From NCBI GenBank assembly GCA_945873815.1, contig CAMCEE010000018.1, positions 1 through 36,415 on the forward strand: DNA of 36,415 nucleotides. The letters run 5' to 3'. The DNA is from an uncultured Caryophanales bacterium (GTDB lineage: Bacteria > Bacillota_I > Bacilli_A > RFN20 > CAG-449). Positions 4,748 through 11,951 of the stretch are shown piece after piece. The translations under genes and the position numbers were made by a program. Position 1 is the first letter of the stretch; each line of letters opens with the position of its first letter. The notes under the pieces were generated by a model. It saw nothing but the letters and a program-made list of their open reading frames with translations. It was not told the origin of the DNA and made no database searches.

Positions 4748-7558
4748 CTAGTTCATTTCTTCCCAATTCATCGGATTTATTCTTCCATCTTGGCAGATCA
4801 AAACAAAAGAAGTATCCCAATAATATACATATTCATATGAAGATTTAATGTTTTTATTAATCCAATCTTCCATTGTCCCACAATAATAAACTTTGCTTAG
4901 ATAAATGCAATCTCTAAAAGGGTTTCTCCCCCATTTAATCGATTCTGAAAGGATATTAACAGAATTTAAAGATAAACAATTTTCAAAAGCAAGATCTCCA
5001 ACTTCCTTTATTCCACTTGAAATAACCACTGTTTCCAAATTAGATGAGCCTTTAAAGCATCTATCCCCGAGTTTAGTAAGTGAAGAAGGTAAACTTACTT
5101 CCTTTAGTCCACTATTTCTAAATGCCTCATCCATAATTGAAATTAGCCCTTCTTTAAAATCAAACGATGATAGGTTAGTACAACCATAAAACGCTCTACT
5201 TTCAATTGATTTAATATTACCATTTATAGTAACGCTTTCTAATGACGTACATCCATTAAACACATCTCTTTTTATCATATCAATATCTGAAAAGAAGATA
5301 ATTTTAACTAATTCCACGCAAGACATAAACGCTTCTTCATCAATTTCAGTTAATGATTTAGGAAGAGTTAGTTCCTTATTTCTAGTATTCTTAAAGGCTG
5401 AATAGCCTATTTTTTCTAATCCCTCATTCAATTGTAAAGAAGAAAGGGAACAACCATAAAATGCCTCTCCACAAATTGATTTCACATCACCATTAATTAA
5501 TACTTCATTTAATCTATTACATTGATAAAATGTTTTTGTTTCAATTTCATCAACATTTGAATTAATTATTACTTTAACCAAATCACTATTATTAATAAAT
5601 GAGAATTCTCCTATTTTAATTAACGTAGAAGGGAATTCTATTTCTTCAATCGCAGAGTACGAAAATGCTCCATTTCCTATTTCTTCTAATCCTTCTTTAA
5701 ATGTGAACTTTCTTAGTTTACTACAATATGAAAAAGCTTCAGCTTCAATTCTTCTTACATTACCATTAATTAGAACTTCATCTAATTGATTACATTGATA
5801 AAATGCTTTGTACTCAATATTTTCAATATCTGAATTGATTACAATTCTAGTTAATGACATATTTTGAGCAAAAGAAAATTTTCCTATTCTTTTTAATGAT
5901 GAAGAAAAATTTATTTCCTCAATCGAAGTATTTTCAAAAGCATTATCTCCAATCTCTTCTATTAGAATATTAAACGAAAATTGCTTTAAATTTTCACATC
6001 TTGCAAAGGCATAATAATCTATTAATCTCACTTTTCCATCTATTTCAACGCATGACAAATTTGTACATTCATAGAAACTCTTCATATTAATGGTATCTAT
6101 ATCACCGGATAAAGATAATTTCTCAAGTTTTGAATAACATTCAAATGAATAAGGTTTAATATTATTTATTCCCGAAAGTGAAATCTCATTTATTTCTTCT
6201 CCATCTTTTATTAAACTACTTCTTAAACTAATCGGATTCGATTCTAAATCAAAATCAATGTCAATCCATGATTCTAGACTATTAATGTATATTTTCGATA
6301 TATCACTTTCCTCAAAAGCCTTTAATTCAATTGTTTTTAATGTGGAAGGAACATGTAATTCTTCTATATTACTATTTCTAAAAGCATATGCTCCAATTGA
6401 TGTTATCCCTTCTTCAAGAACAACCTTTTTAATACCTTTAATACCTTCAAATGCACTTTCTGATACTTCTATATTATCTGATAAAATAATAATAGAAAGT
6501 TCACATTCACTATCAATATTGAAGAATGATCCACATTTCTTATAATTAGAATATATCGATACATCAAGAGTTCTTTTAATATTGTTATTATGTGTAATAC
6601 CATTAAATATCCTTTTTAAAGATGTATTACTAAGAGGCTTCATTTTTATCTCACGAAGATAATTTTGACCGCTTAATAAACCATCTTCAATGACTTCAAC
6701 TGTATCAGGAATATATAACTTTGTTAAATTTACATCCTTAAATAAAGTACTACATAATTTAATCACTGGTTTATTATCTATAGAATCAGGAAGACTAACA
6801 TCGTCTTCTTTTTCAATCATATCAAATAATGCTATCCCTTTTTCTCCTACAGGATAATACTTGTATTTACTTTCTTTTGGAACATAAAATGCTTTTAGAG
6901 TTAAATCATCTTTCCTATCTAAAGTAGATCCAATATCAATCTTTTTTCCATTATATAACCAACAAGAAAACTCATATCCCTCTTTTGTTGGTACAGGAAG
7001 ATAATCAATAGTTTTCGAATATACACATTCAATACTATCTTTTTCCACCTTTCCTCCATTCGCATCAAAAAATATTCTAACTTTATCTAAAAAATGAGAA
7101 GTTAAAACAATATCTTCTTTTACATCAAATGAAGCAACATATCTTCTATTAAGTTCGTCATAATAAGCATCAAAAACGCCATCTTCCGTATCAGGTAGTG
7201 TCTCGAGTTTCACACATGTTCCATAATCGTATAAAGTCGTTTTTCCATCAATTGTAACACTATATTGATTTATTGAATAAACTGCAAATACCCTAGTATG
7301 AGAATAGATTCTAGTTGAATCAAAATCAAAAGGTTTTCCCTTTTCATCAACCCATCCAATAAATGTATATCCTTCTTTTTCCATATTGATTGATGGTTCT
7401 CTAACTGTGTCTCCATCCCTAACGATTACAGGAGAAGTTATCTTCCGTCCATTATAATAAAATGAAACATAATGACCAAGATTATAACAACTAGTTAGAC
7501 CAAAAAAAACTAGAAATGCTAATATAAATCCGCATGCAAATTTCAATAATATCTTCAT
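4748..7558 (-). CDS. Surface lipoprotein with InlB-type repeats and BspA-type leucine-rich repeats
   Basis: 936 aa. A type II signal peptide ends in lipobox LTSC (C24), so the protein should be anchored outside the membrane. Two Listeria/Bacteroides (InlB B-repeat, Flg_new) modules follow, at about 30-95 (ending GYTFIGW..) and 160-225 (DANGGKV...EGYEFSCW). From about 255 to 890 it consists of LRR_5 (BspA-like) units of about 22-23 aa (pattern IxxIxxxAFxxCxxLxxVxIxxxV). Residues 547-880 fall into a higher-order repeat of 90-91 aa (starts at 547, 637, 728, 818). The tail VYYCGTMEDW is typical of BspA-like proteins. GGAGAT lies 5 nt before the ATG. Binding to host or bacterial surfaces is plausible from the family but not shown. 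The APH-like kinase gene follows without a gap. Confidence 0.88.
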   Translation of the reverse strand: MKILLKFACGFILAFLVFFGLTSCYNLGHYVSFYYNGRKITSPVIVRDGDTVREPSINMEKEGYTFIGWVDEKGKPFDFDSTRIYSHTRVFAVYSINQYSVTIDGKTTLYDYGTCVKLETLPDTEDGVFDAYYDELNRRYVASFDVKEDIVLTSHFLDKVRIFFDANGGKVEKDSIECVYSKTIDYLPVPTKEGYEFSCWLYNGKKIDIGSTLDRKDDLTLKAFYVPKESKYKYYPVGEKGIALFDMIEKEDDVSLPDSIDNKPVIKLCSTLFKDVNLTKLYIPDTVEVIEDGLLSGQNYLREIKMKPLSNTSLKRIFNGITHNNNIKRTLDVSIYSNYKKCGSFFNIDSECELSIIILSDNIEVSESAFEGIKGIKKVVLEEGITSIGAYAFRNSNIEELHVPSTLKTIELKAFEESDISKIYINSLESWIDIDFDLESNPISLRSSLIKDGEEINEISLSGINNIKPYSFECYSKLEKLSLSGDIDTINMKSFYECTNLSCVEIDGKVRLIDYYAFARCENLKQFSFNILIEEIGDNAFENTSIEEINFSSSLKRIGKFSFAQNMSLTRIVINSDIENIEYKAFYQCNQLDEVLINGNVRRIEAEAFSYCSKLRKFTFKEGLEEIGNGAFSYSAIEEIEFPSTLIKIGEFSFINNSDLVKVIINSNVDEIETKTFYQCNRLNEVLINGDVKSICGEAFYGCSLSSLQLNEGLEKIGYSAFKNTRNKELTLPKSLTEIDEEAFMSCVELVKIIFFSDIDMIKRDVFNGCTSLESVTINGNIKSIESRAFYGCTNLSSFDFKEGLISIMDEAFRNSGLKEVSLPSSLTKLGDRCFKGSSNLETVVISSGIKEVGDLAFENCLSLNSVNILSESIKWGRNPFRDCIYLSKVYYCGTMEDWINKNIKSSYEYVYYWDTSFVLICQDGRINPMNWEEMN

Positions 7559-8975: not shown

Positions 8976-9162
8976 ATCTTTATTGTAACGGTCCAAATCC
9001 AATTTGTAATTTTTATCCAAAATGAACAAGTAATGTTACAACATTTGTAATACGGCGAAGCAACTTTATATGTTTATCACAAATCCGCCTTACACATTTA
9101 TTATGTCGTGAAGGTTTCATTTCGCGAGCCCCCAAAGCGAAGAATATTTAGTACAAAACGAA

Positions 9163-9196
9163 AAAAAGTCCCACCGATTGCTTCCGACAGGACCGT
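9163..9196 (-). terminator. Terminator-like hairpin
   Basis: Minus strand GTCC(TGTCG)...(CGGTG)GGAC, closed by GC and GU pairs, then TTTTTTT. It lies about 25 bp beyond the terminator at 9215-9248, so it may be a backup or the end of a lost gene. Confidence 0.45.
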
Positions 9197-9214
9197 ATTT
9201 ATATATTCATATAT

Positions 9215-9290
9215 AAAAAAAGACCACCACTGATGTTTGTGGTGATCTATTTGTTATTTTCTTCTGTTACCTATTTGATAACTAATTTTG
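9215..9290 (-). repeat. Dispersed terminator-bearing repeat, copy 3, with terminator of the mntA-hepT-GNAT operon
   Basis: The hairpin ATCACCAC / GTGGTGGT followed by seven T (9215-9248) is the only good minus-strand terminator after the GNAT gene. The core at 9259-9289 is identical over 31 bp to 11113-11143. Confidence 0.75.
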
Positions 9291-9352
9291 TCTATAACTA
9301 GAAAAAACACTTTGTCTTTTAAAGAACAATTGATGTAGTCAGACAAGTCCAT
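9254..9352 (-). CDS. Possible 32-codon peptide overlapping the repeat
   Basis: ATG at 9352 preceded by GAGGAAAA, stop TAA at 9254, an in-frame TGA just upstream of the site; the product starts MDLSDYIN and ends ISYQIGNRRK. The good ribosome-binding site is the only support. The last third is encoded by the repeat core shared with 11113-11143, where the frame is also open but without a start. It could be a fragment of a lost gene. Low confidence. Confidence 0.2.
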   Translation of the reverse strand: MDLSDYINCSLKDKVFFLVIDKISYQIGNRRK

Positions 9353-9392
9353 TTTTCCTCAAAATGACAATTTCAATCTTCATGTCTTAATT

Positions 9393-10202
9393 CTATTTTT
9401 CAATATGTGCAGTTATTGTATTTCCGTTCACTTTTACGAATCCTAAACTTTTATACGCTTTAATTGCAGGAATATTATCAATATCAACATCTAATTTCAT
9501 ACCTTTATTTCCATTTAACTCTATTGCATAAGATAACATTTCTTTTGCTACACCTAATCCTCGATATTCTTCTTTAACATAAACATCAAACGGTATATTA
9601 ACTTCATCCGTATAAGTAATATCAACATATCCGACAACTTTATTATCTTTAACGCATAATATAACTTTAAATTTATCAAGTGAATTTAGCACTTTATCTG
9701 CAGTCCAATAGAATCCATCGTCATGAATACTAATATAATCTTTTTTATACTCGTCACTATACAAAACAATATTGTGCTTCCCTTTATAATAACAAGGAAC
9801 ATTTAATACCATCTTTTGTTGTTCTTTATCGAAAATAGCCTTGCGTTCTTTTAATTTTCTCATCATATAATCATTTTTAGGATTAAATACTACATCAATC
9901 GAATAGTCATTATATTCCTTATCTAGCAGTTCAAATAATTCTTTATATGCAATTTCACTACTTGATATTGCGTGAGTAATTTCAATATATTTTTCATCAG
10001 TAAGGATATATAAAACAAATATTCCAATTATCTTGTTATCATCATATATACCTATAAATCTTTTATTATTTAAATTTCTAGGATTATAGAAATAATACTC
10101 TCCTTCATCATCTAGTAAAAATGGATCATAATATTTTTCATTTTCCATGATATCATCAACAAAATATTTATAATCTTTTAAATCAAATAACTCTTTTTTC
10201 AT
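9393..10202 (-). CDS. GNAT-family acetyltransferase (probable tandem GNAT fold)
   Basis: 269 aa. The C-terminal half is a GNAT domain with the acetyl-CoA loop YRGLGVAKEML (R214-A219) and the DIDNIPAIKAYKSLGF segment (241-255). The N-terminal half (about 1-135) has a GNAT-like strand pattern (RFIGIYDDNKIIGIFVLY) without a recognisable acetyl-CoA loop, so it may be a degenerate second domain. It starts 11 bp after the hepT stop, with only a weak GTGAT site upstream, and the next terminator lies beyond it (9215-9248), so it is probably the third gene of the mntA-hepT operon. Substrate unknown. Some toxin-antitoxin systems use GNAT toxins, but those are shorter single domains; a link to the toxin is inferred from position only. 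Confidence 0.78.
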   Translation of the reverse strand: MKKELFDLKDYKYFVDDIMENEKYYDPFLLDDEGEYYFYNPRNLNNKRFIGIYDDNKIIGIFVLYILTDEKYIEITHAISSSEIAYKELFELLDKEYNDYSIDVVFNPKNDYMMRKLKERKAIFDKEQQKMVLNVPCYYKGKHNIVLYSDEYKKDYISIHDDGFYWTADKVLNSLDKFKVILCVKDNKVVGYVDITYTDEVNIPFDVYVKEEYRGLGVAKEMLSYAIELNGNKGMKLDVDIDNIPAIKAYKSLGFVKVNGNTITAHIEK

Positions 10203-10213
10203 ATATCAATCAC

Positions 10214-10549
10214 TTATTTAATAATATCTTCACAATAATCTTTTAATTCTCTAATACTCTCTACTGCAGTATTCCATAATATTTCAAGATTTATCGTATC
10301 ATATCCATGAACAATTCTATTTCTAAGTCCTTTTATTTGTTTCCAAGGAATCTTTTTATATTCATCCAAAAATTCATTTGATAATTTACTGGTTAATTCA
10401 CCTATTTGAAACAAATTAAAAGCAACAATCTCCTGCAAATCATTGTCACCATAAAAATCAGCTTCTTTGATATCTTTTAGTTTATTCATTATTCTGTCAC
10501 AGTGACTTATTATCATTAAGATGATACCATTGTCTTTAAAATTTAGCAT
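10214..10549 (-). CDS. hepT: HepT-like toxin (DUF86 / HEPN family RNase)
   Basis: 111 aa, all helical. RNRIVHGY (R76-Y83) is the R-X4-H-X-Y motif of HepT toxins: R76 and H81 form the HEPN RNase site and Y83 is the tyrosine that MntA AMPylates in characterised type VII systems. The ATG overlaps the mntA stop by 7 bp (ATGCTAA) and GGAGGAT lies 11 nt upstream, so translation is likely coupled to the antitoxin. Family members cleave RNA (tRNA in described cases) as dimers or higher oligomers. Motif and length are intact, so it is probably functional. Confidence 0.88.
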   Translation of the reverse strand: MLNFKDNGIILMIISHCDRIMNKLKDIKEADFYGDNDLQEIVAFNLFQIGELTSKLSNEFLDEYKKIPWKQIKGLRNRIVHGYDTINLEILWNTAVESIRELKDYCEDIIK

Positions 10550-10995
10550 AGTTTAATTAAATCCTCCTCAATTTGTGATCTAAAATATTCATCCATTTTT
10601 GATGAAATAAATACTAAATCAACTTTTTTGCCTAATTCAGCCTCAAGTCTATCTTCAAGGATACCCTGGTCGATTAAAGTTTTAACATTTCCTTTATCAC
10701 ATAAAATATCTACATCAGAATTGGCATTTGCTTCTCCTCTAGCATAAGAGCCAAACAAATATATTTCTTTTATATCAAATTCATTTAGAACTTTCTTAAG
10801 TATTCTTTTAATGTCTTTTAATTTTAAAACATTAGGAAATGCATCTTCTTTTATCAATGAAACTAAATACGAATTTCTCATATTGATATTATCTAAGTAT
10901 TCTATAATCTCATCATCTTTTCTTACTCTAAACTGATACATCTTATAGTTATCTTTATTATATTTTGATATGTATGCATTTTGTTTAAAACTCAT
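10543..10995 (-). CDS. mntA: MntA-like nucleotidyltransferase antitoxin with N-terminal ribbon-helix-helix-like domain
   Basis: Minimal nucleotidyltransferase. Residues from the ATG at 10995: GS-X10-DXD motif (G82, S83, D94, D96) in FGSYARGEANANSDVDIL and a third acidic residue D126 (KKVDLVF). MntA AMPylates and silences HepT in described systems. Unlike plain MntA (about 95-140 aa, starting near the NT fold), this one has about 55 extra N-terminal residues. The pattern there is strand YKMYQFRVRK, helix DDEIIEYLDNI, turn NMRNS, helix YLVSLIKED, which is the layout of Arc/MetJ ribbon-helix-helix proteins. The start at 10995 is chosen because AAGGTGG lies upstream and the upstream ATG at 11019 would lie inside the -10 region. 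Two palindromic operators precede it. Confidence 0.85.
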   Translation of the reverse strand: MSFKQNAYISKYNKDNYKMYQFRVRKDDEIIEYLDNINMRNSYLVSLIKEDAFPNVLKLKDIKRILKKVLNEFDIKEIYLFGSYARGEANANSDVDILCDKGNVKTLIDQGILEDRLEAELGKKVDLVFISSKMDEYFRSQIEEDLIKLC

Positions 10996-11015
10996 ATATA
11001 TGCACCACCTTCCAT

Positions 11016-11068
11016 ACATATGATATCATATGTGCATTCAATTATCAACACATATGATATCATATGTG
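11016..11068 (-). promoter_or_regulatory. Promoter and twin palindromic operators of mntA-hepT-GNAT
   Basis: Two identical 18-bp perfect palindromes, ACATATGATATCATATGT, at 11016-11033 and 11050-11067 (the second extends to 20 bp, 11049-11068); centres 34 bp apart. On the minus strand -35 TTGATA (11043-11048) and -10 TATCAT (11020-11025) are 17 bp apart with a TG extension. The -10 lies inside the first palindrome and the second overlaps the edge of the -35. A protein on either site would block RNA polymerase, and the RHH-like part of MntA is the obvious candidate. Confidence 0.8.
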
Positions 11069-11080
11069 AGCAAAACAACG

Positions 11081-11143
11081 AAAAAGACCACCATTACGAG
11101 TGATCTTATTAATTCTTCTGTTACCTATTTGATAACTAATTTT
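11081..11143 (-). repeat. Dispersed terminator-bearing repeat, copy 4, with terminator of rpsF-ssb-rpsR
   Basis: The hairpin AGATCAC / GTGGTCT (8-nt loop) followed by five T at 11081-11107 ends the ribosomal operon. The core at 11113-11143 is identical over 31 bp to 9259-9289. The stretch 11144-11200 also contains a GGACCG motif shared with copy 2 (near 8988). Confidence 0.75.
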
Positions 11144-11206
11144 CTTCGCCGGTCCACTTCGTGATCTTTTTACAAAGTCAGTCTGTGGTGCGACAACATT
11201 TTTTAA

Positions 11207-11434
11207 TTAGTCAATAATGAATGGTAATAAAGCCATGATACGAGCATTTTTAATTGCTTGTTCAACTGCTCTTTGGTGTTTAGCACATGCGCCTGTAACA
11301 CGTCTTGGAGCAATCTTACCATTTGGAGAAATGAAACGTTTTAATGTTTCAACATCCTTATAGTCAATGACTTGATTCTTATTTTTACAGAAAATACAAA
11401 CCTTTTTTCTAGGTCTAATCTTTTTGAATCCCAT
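11207..11434 (-). CDS. rpsR: 30S ribosomal protein S18
   Basis: 75 aa, typical length. It ends in the conserved block [20 protein letters not shown] followed by [11 protein letters not shown]. It carries C13, C16, C50 and H53, the zinc-ribbon type of S18. S18 pairs with S6 on the 30S platform, and here it closes the rpsF-ssb-rpsR operon. AGGAAA lies 8 nt before the ATG. The terminator follows at 11081-11107. Confidence 0.97.
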
Positions 11435-11486
11435 ATTAATGTTTCCTTTCTTTCACTGTGAGTGAAACTATTCAATCTACCTCGAA

Positions 11487-11951
11487 TTAGAAAGGTAAAT
11501 CATCATCAGCTACATCAATTGAAGATACATTCTTTTGTTGTGGTTCTTCAATAACAGGGTCTGGTTGATAACTAGGAACAGTATCATTTACAAATGCACT
11601 ATCTCCATTTGTTACACCACTTGTATTCTCATCTTTTCTTTCTAAGAATTGAACTGAATCACAAATAACCTCAATAACTGATACTTTGCGTCCATCTTTA
11701 GAGTCGTAGGTACGTTGATTTAATCTACCTTCAACTCCAACTAAAGAACCCTTGTGAACAAAACGAGAAACATTTTCTGCTGCTTGATTCCAAACTGTAC
11801 ATGGAATGAAGCTTGCTGTTTTATTTCCAGCTGCATCTTTTGTTCTGTTGTCAACTGCTACTGTGAAGGAAGAAACAGCTGCACCACTTGTAGTTCTTCT
11901 TAATTCTGGATCTCTTGTCAAGCGTCCAACTAATACAACACGATTAATCAT
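11487..11951 (-). CDS. ssb: Single-stranded DNA-binding protein
   Basis: 154 aa. OB-fold (residues 1-105) beginning MINRVVLVGRLTRDPELR, a glutamine/proline/acid-rich linker, and the acidic tip DDDLPF that recruits replication and repair proteins. It coats ssDNA at the fork and in repair, as a tetramer in this family. It sits between rpsF and rpsR, the usual Bacilli order, with AGGAGG 8 nt before the ATG. Confidence 0.97.
   Translation of the reverse strand: MINRVVLVGRLTRDPELRRTTSGAAVSSFTVAVDNRTKDAAGNKTASFIPCTVWNQAAENVSRFVHKGSLVGVEGRLNQRTYDSKDGRKVSVIEVICDSVQFLERKDENTSGVTNGDSAFVNDTVPSYQPDPVIEEPQQKNVSSIDVADDDLPF

Follow-up and report, generated by a model that had tools for sequence, protein, structure and literature searches.

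Twin palindromic candidate operators at the promoter of a MntA-HepT-type operon whose antitoxin carries an RHH-like N-terminal domain

Two identical copies of the 18-bp perfect palindrome ACATATGATATCATATGT, designated O1 and O2, are located at the predicted promoter of an antitoxin-toxin operon in the window, i.e. the whole 36,415-bp stretch of DNA analyzed. Comparative sequence evidence makes it very probable that both are operators of the RHH-MNT antitoxin, through which this protein would repress its own antitoxin-toxin operon by means of its N-terminal domain. Such autorepression is standard antitoxin logic, and the proposal from which this work started, that the fused antitoxin is autoregulatory, is strongly supported by the comparisons described below.

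The fused antitoxin gene (10543–10995, minus strand) encodes 150 aa, with a predicted N-terminal RHH-like domain followed by an MntA-type nucleotidyltransferase. Residues ~55–150 match the MNT nucleotidyltransferase family (PF01909, E 8.5e-15) and their structure model matches MntA (7bxo and 8xeo); the GSx10DxD motif is intact (GSYARG...SDVD), GSYARGEANANSDVD is present, and the score against the NCBIfam MntA equivalog model is below the cut-off (45 of 60 bits). The start of the adjacent gene (10214–10549, minus strand) overlaps the antitoxin stop, and its 111-aa product is a predicted HepT-type HEPN ribonuclease toxin (PF01934, 85.3 bits), in which the Rx4-6H motif and the following Tyr are intact as RNRIVHGY; against the NCBIfam HepT equivalog model it too scores below the cut-off (44.3 of 60 bits). 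In type VII MntA-HepT systems, the toxin is by definition neutralized by AMPylation. A third gene (9393–10202, minus strand), encoding a two-domain GNAT acetyltransferase, is probably co-transcribed with the antitoxin and toxin genes. Elsewhere in the window (4748–7558), a 936-aa repeat protein is encoded that begins with a signal-peptide-like segment and, as judged by eye, contains leucine-rich BspA-like repeats.

Among the promoter-like sites scored in the region 9100–11500, the top-ranked one (10/12 matches) consists of a -35 hexamer TTGATA (11043–11048), a 17-bp spacer and a -10 hexamer TATCAT (11020–11025), both on the minus strand, the latter with the TG of an extended -10 (TGATATCAT); it is the predicted operon promoter. 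A Shine-Dalgarno-like sequence, AAGGTGGTG (11003–11011, minus strand), precedes the ATG at 10995 and supports this start codon over the one at 11019, where a longer frame opens within O1, ahead of the point at which transcription is expected to begin. An intrinsic terminator (11084–11107, minus strand) is situated between the rpsF-ssb-rpsR operon and the palindromes.

Both exact 18-mers of the original prediction were confirmed, at 11016–11033 (O1) and 11050–11067 (O2), as was their placement: O1 covers the -10, and the 18-mer of O2, part of a 20-bp perfect palindrome (11049–11068) just upstream of the -35, ends 1 bp from that hexamer. The repeat on the plus strand spans 19 bp (11016–11034 and 11050–11068). 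Each 18-mer contains two CATATG boxes, themselves palindromic and 10 bp apart centre to centre (11017–11022 and 11027–11032 in O1; 11051–11056 and 11061–11066 in O2). O1 and O2 are the sole perfect 18-bp palindromes within the window, where ACATATGATATCATATGT is the only 18-mer recurring within 60 bp and no further copy was found at up to 3 mismatches (0.10 expected). From the base composition of the host DNA (29.5% G+C), about 0.0004 copies are expected in the whole genome, in agreement with the claim that a chance origin is very unlikely. The sequences flanking O1 and O2 are unlike (5 of 14 matching positions on each side); identity thus ends where the palindrome ends, as expected of a selected site and not of a recent segment duplication. 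The palindrome was also considered as an RNA structure, a candidate rejected since it has no Rfam match and O1, overlying the -10, would be mostly untranscribed.

A search of the 1.8-Mb host genome allowing for up to 2 mismatches yielded three copies of the 18-mer: O1, O2 and one at C19:3096. This last copy lies immediately next to the start of the only paralogue (158-aa frame, 62% identical), the sole other gene with the N-terminal domain. A genome-wide search had been set beforehand as the test on which the prediction would fall if the 18-mer were scattered; the single extra copy, lying where it does, speaks for the prediction, and the palindrome was rejected as a dispersed repeat. No HepT gene was found behind the paralogue (L004, 3110–3586), of which the RHH-MNT gene and the operator are intact; it may be an orphan antitoxin able to cross-bind the operators of the window. 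In 84,980 species genomes, the exact 18-mer was found in 27 stretches representing 26 distinct places. Fourteen of these abut the start of a gene of the same antitoxin family (one truncated and one cut by a contig end), and the other 12 adjoin no gene of the RHH-MNT antitoxin family, which weighs against the operator reading. The pattern ACATATGN4CATATGT had 13 sites over 395 genomes versus 4 for the reversed control.

Thirteen family loci were collected by protein alone, without selection on the site. The 16-bp core CATATGATATCATATG is exact in 9 of them and is conserved with at most 2 mismatches at the promoter of the locus's own operon in 12; dinucleotide shuffles had, on average, 5.3–6.3 mismatches to the core. 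In those relatives, the site lies on the -10 box and ends 15–21 bp before the ATG, and most have a TTGACA-like hexamer ending 9 bp upstream of the 18-mer, a 17-bp spacer and a TATCAT -10 inside the palindrome. The diverged site of L021 (TGTATG-ATAA-CATACA) carries mirror changes on both arms, and in L087 (G377) two sites overlap to form a perfect palindrome of 28 bp (CATATGATATCATATATGATATCATATG) that occupies the whole interval between the -35 and the -10, ~17–45 bp upstream of the ATG. A separated twin operator is present in 1 of the 20 family loci compared, namely the window. Comparison across relatives, which had been proposed as a check, thus favours the prediction as regards one widely kept site but not as regards the separated twin. 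Judged from these sequences, the family normally has a single putative operator, a pattern seen in many gut bacteria, and the upstream O2 is peculiar to the host genome. In two assemblies (L045/L056 and L062/L067), contigs end at the operator; in one of them this seems to be because two family copies share it. In L089 (G353:C73), a P-loop kinase-like N-terminus replaces most of the RHH-like domain in front of the family's MNT domain, representing either a fusion or an assembly chimera.

In the mechanism that we propose, dimers of the N-terminal domain would bind the CATATG boxes, most likely as two dimers per 18-mer placed one helical turn (10 bp) apart, a spacing compatible with dimers on palindromic boxes. 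Binding at O1 would cover the -10 and keep RNA polymerase from initiating transcription of the antitoxin-toxin(-GNAT) operon, possibly with HepT as a corepressor, and the operon would reopen when the antitoxin level drops. O1 would be the ancestral, family-wide operator, and O2 an extra, auxiliary copy that probably raises the local concentration of the repressor, covers the -35 or damps read-through from rpsF-ssb-rpsR.

In the rival version built on the original prediction of RHH dimers binding cooperatively on one face of the DNA, those on O1 and O2 touch and the twin is the functional unit. Identical copies with unlike flanks do imply selection on both, and the multimeric MntA-HepT complexes could loop the DNA to span the 34 bp. 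Even so, we consider this arrangement unlikely. The spacing described as "34 bp, about three turns" is in fact 3.24 turns (34/10.5), which sets the two copies ~86 degrees off at 10.5 bp per turn, and nearly all relatives are single-site. Moreover, in relO, the closest studied operator of an RHH antitoxin, repression was lost even with 10 bp inserted in phase (PMC2812701). Because of this precedent and the 3.24 turns, dimers on O1 are unlikely to touch those on O2, and RHH cooperativity is better placed inside each 18-mer, between boxes 10 bp apart, than between O1 and O2.

The N-terminal domain (54 aa; 10834–10995, minus strand) is predicted to have the order helix-beta strand-helix-helix, i.e. 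the RHH order preceded by one additional helix at the N-terminus. The structure models, built as monomers, are of moderate confidence (pLDDT 52–85), and the strand at ~17–25, which precedes two helices, is assigned in one model and merely extended in the other. No RHH family match to this domain was found in Pfam, NCBIfam or PDB sequences, a Foldseek search with the 54-aa model had no hits at all, and hhalign to an RHH_1 protein gave a probability of 2%, with the register correct. The label "RHH" given to it initially therefore agrees with the predicted topology but not with any sequence family or fold library match, and we refer to the domain as RHH-like, not as a proven RHH member.

Matches confined to the N-terminal domain, one of which was reused as query, led to operons that combine the same 54-aa domain (38–44% identical to that of the window) with another C-terminal half and have a gene for a HipA-like kinase behind it (HipA_C, E 1.8e-6, just short of the Pfam cut-off). 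ACATWTG-N4-CAWATGT was present ~24–30 bp before the ATG in 8 of the 8 HipA-type loci with a readable promoter. The centres of these sites are mostly G/C-rich (GGGT, CCCC, TGCC, TACC, GGCC, GGGG, CCCC and CCCC), whereas that of the MNT type is ATAT. The strand residues track the centre, being K-M/T-Y/I-Q/P-F-R in the MNT type versus K-T/S-I/L-K-L/I-R in the HipA type, a correlation resting on two clades. The HipA-type loci, L107–L114, form a second toxin-antitoxin-like family, and some genomes carry both the HipA-type and the MNT-type families.

For 22 MNT antitoxins with an Xre-type HTH, another RHH domain or no DNA-binding domain, the best match to the site had 3–5 mismatches. Since the half-sites are shared with the HipA type and absent from these 22, they travel with the N-terminal domain and not with the MNT domain, and it is most likely the N-terminal domain that reads the site. 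Recognition of the site by the MNT domain itself or by an MNT-HepT complex is improbable: the Shewanella MntA does bind its own promoter without any DNA-binding domain (PMC4621449), but the HipA-like operons have only the N-terminal domain in common with the window and retain the half-sites, which MNT proteins with other N-termini lack. Most of the other MNT antitoxins (L023–L044, L079 and L128) have an N-terminal Xre-type HTH; L031 and L128, with an RHH_1-like N-terminus, share TGTATTTACA upstream, suggesting an operator of their own.

Since an extended -10 (TGATATCAT) is present inside the palindrome, the latter might be merely a strong promoter element of this kind, or else the site of an unrelated regulator. 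We regard this as highly improbable, as the whole palindrome is conserved, the centre varies in the HipA type while the arms stay, the one outlier is mirror-changed on both arms, and the site keeps to a single gene family in hosts of different families and orders. An origin by chance or through faulty assembly, for which the AT-richness of the host and the contigs of some relatives breaking at the site could be cited, has a negligible probability, being refuted already by conservation in independent assemblies and at odds with the number of copies expected per genome.

The antitoxin-toxin-GNAT module is bordered by two perfect 31-bp direct repeats (9259–9289 and 11113–11143, plus strand), 1854 bp apart, and no further copy of the repeat was found in the host genome. 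A genome of the same genus (G005, L135) has an empty site behind rpsR, with one repeat copy and the same flanks, indicating that the module is mobile and was inserted precisely, as ~1.85 kb of DNA, at a terminator. Two other family loci are likewise flanked, L017 by exact direct repeats of 45 bp comprising a terminator hairpin (1402–1446 and 2285–2329) and L061 by 40-bp direct repeats with 2 mismatches (812–851 and 1711–1750), in both cases ending directly upstream of the promoter. The sequence and length of the repeats vary per site, and none were found flanking most other family loci. A phage or plasmid origin of the module was rejected, as no full-length relatives were present among 72,556 plasmids or 50,697 phages; 5 viral MNT relatives align to the MNT part only, and the sole exact 18-mer match in IMG/VR has no readable RHH-MNT frame nearby.

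A broader reading is offered tentatively, with slightly less than even confidence: i) an unrecognised RHH-like family may be a regulatory plug-in for toxin-antitoxin effectors that are unrelated to each other (MNT-HepT and HipA-like kinases), bringing the operator arms with it, ii) the central 4 bp (ATAT versus mostly G/C-rich) together with strand residues (M/T19 and Q/P21 versus T/S19 and K21) may prevent cross-regulation of co-resident systems, and iii) the MNT form may be a travelling cassette that leaves direct repeats of 31–45 bp.

Autoregulated antitoxins and MntA-HepT modules are already known. In the literature searched, with most subscription journals outside its scope, we did not find an MNT antitoxin with an RHH-like domain and a conserved operator, half-sites shared with HipA-like operons, a twin operator or, in print, the sequence of the 18-mer site. 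HEPN-MNT modules have been described as being without a DNA-binding domain (PMC7641770), and in the one system for which promoter binding was reported, no domain accounts for it (PMC4621449). With a predicted dedicated DNA-reading domain and a conserved candidate operator, the antitoxin of the window would make type VII autoregulation directly testable.

The window operon resembles SO_3165/SO_3166 of Shewanella, a type VII MntA-HepT system, in having the antitoxin gene first and overlapping the toxin gene, in the GSx10DxD and Rx4-6H motifs, and in the palindromes near the -10 and the -35 (PMC4621449). Repression of the antitoxin's own promoter was shown in Shewanella (PMC4621449) and would apply by analogy here. 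Unlike SO_3165/SO_3166, which has no DNA-binding domain and two dissimilar palindromes, the window has the extra N-terminal domain and identical palindromes of a kind conserved in the family. Features in common with RelBE/relO are an antitoxin-borne domain of beta-alpha-alpha topology (here a candidate one), 6-bp boxes repeated along the same face of the DNA and an operator at the transcription start (PMC2812701). The relO half-sites, however, are contiguous over 24 bp (~-10 to +17), whereas the boxes of the window are 10 bp apart in an 18-mer overlapping the -10; unlike RelBE, the window has a second 18-mer 34 bp away, and the effector part of its antitoxin is an enzyme. HipA-like kinase operons have the same 54-aa domain and the half-sites ACATWTG/CAWATGT at the promoter, but differ in the other effector half, the HipA-like partner and the centre, which is mostly G/C-rich and not ATAT. 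These common half-sites may represent a natural experiment in how co-resident toxin-antitoxin systems with one DNA-binding domain in common avoid crosstalk.
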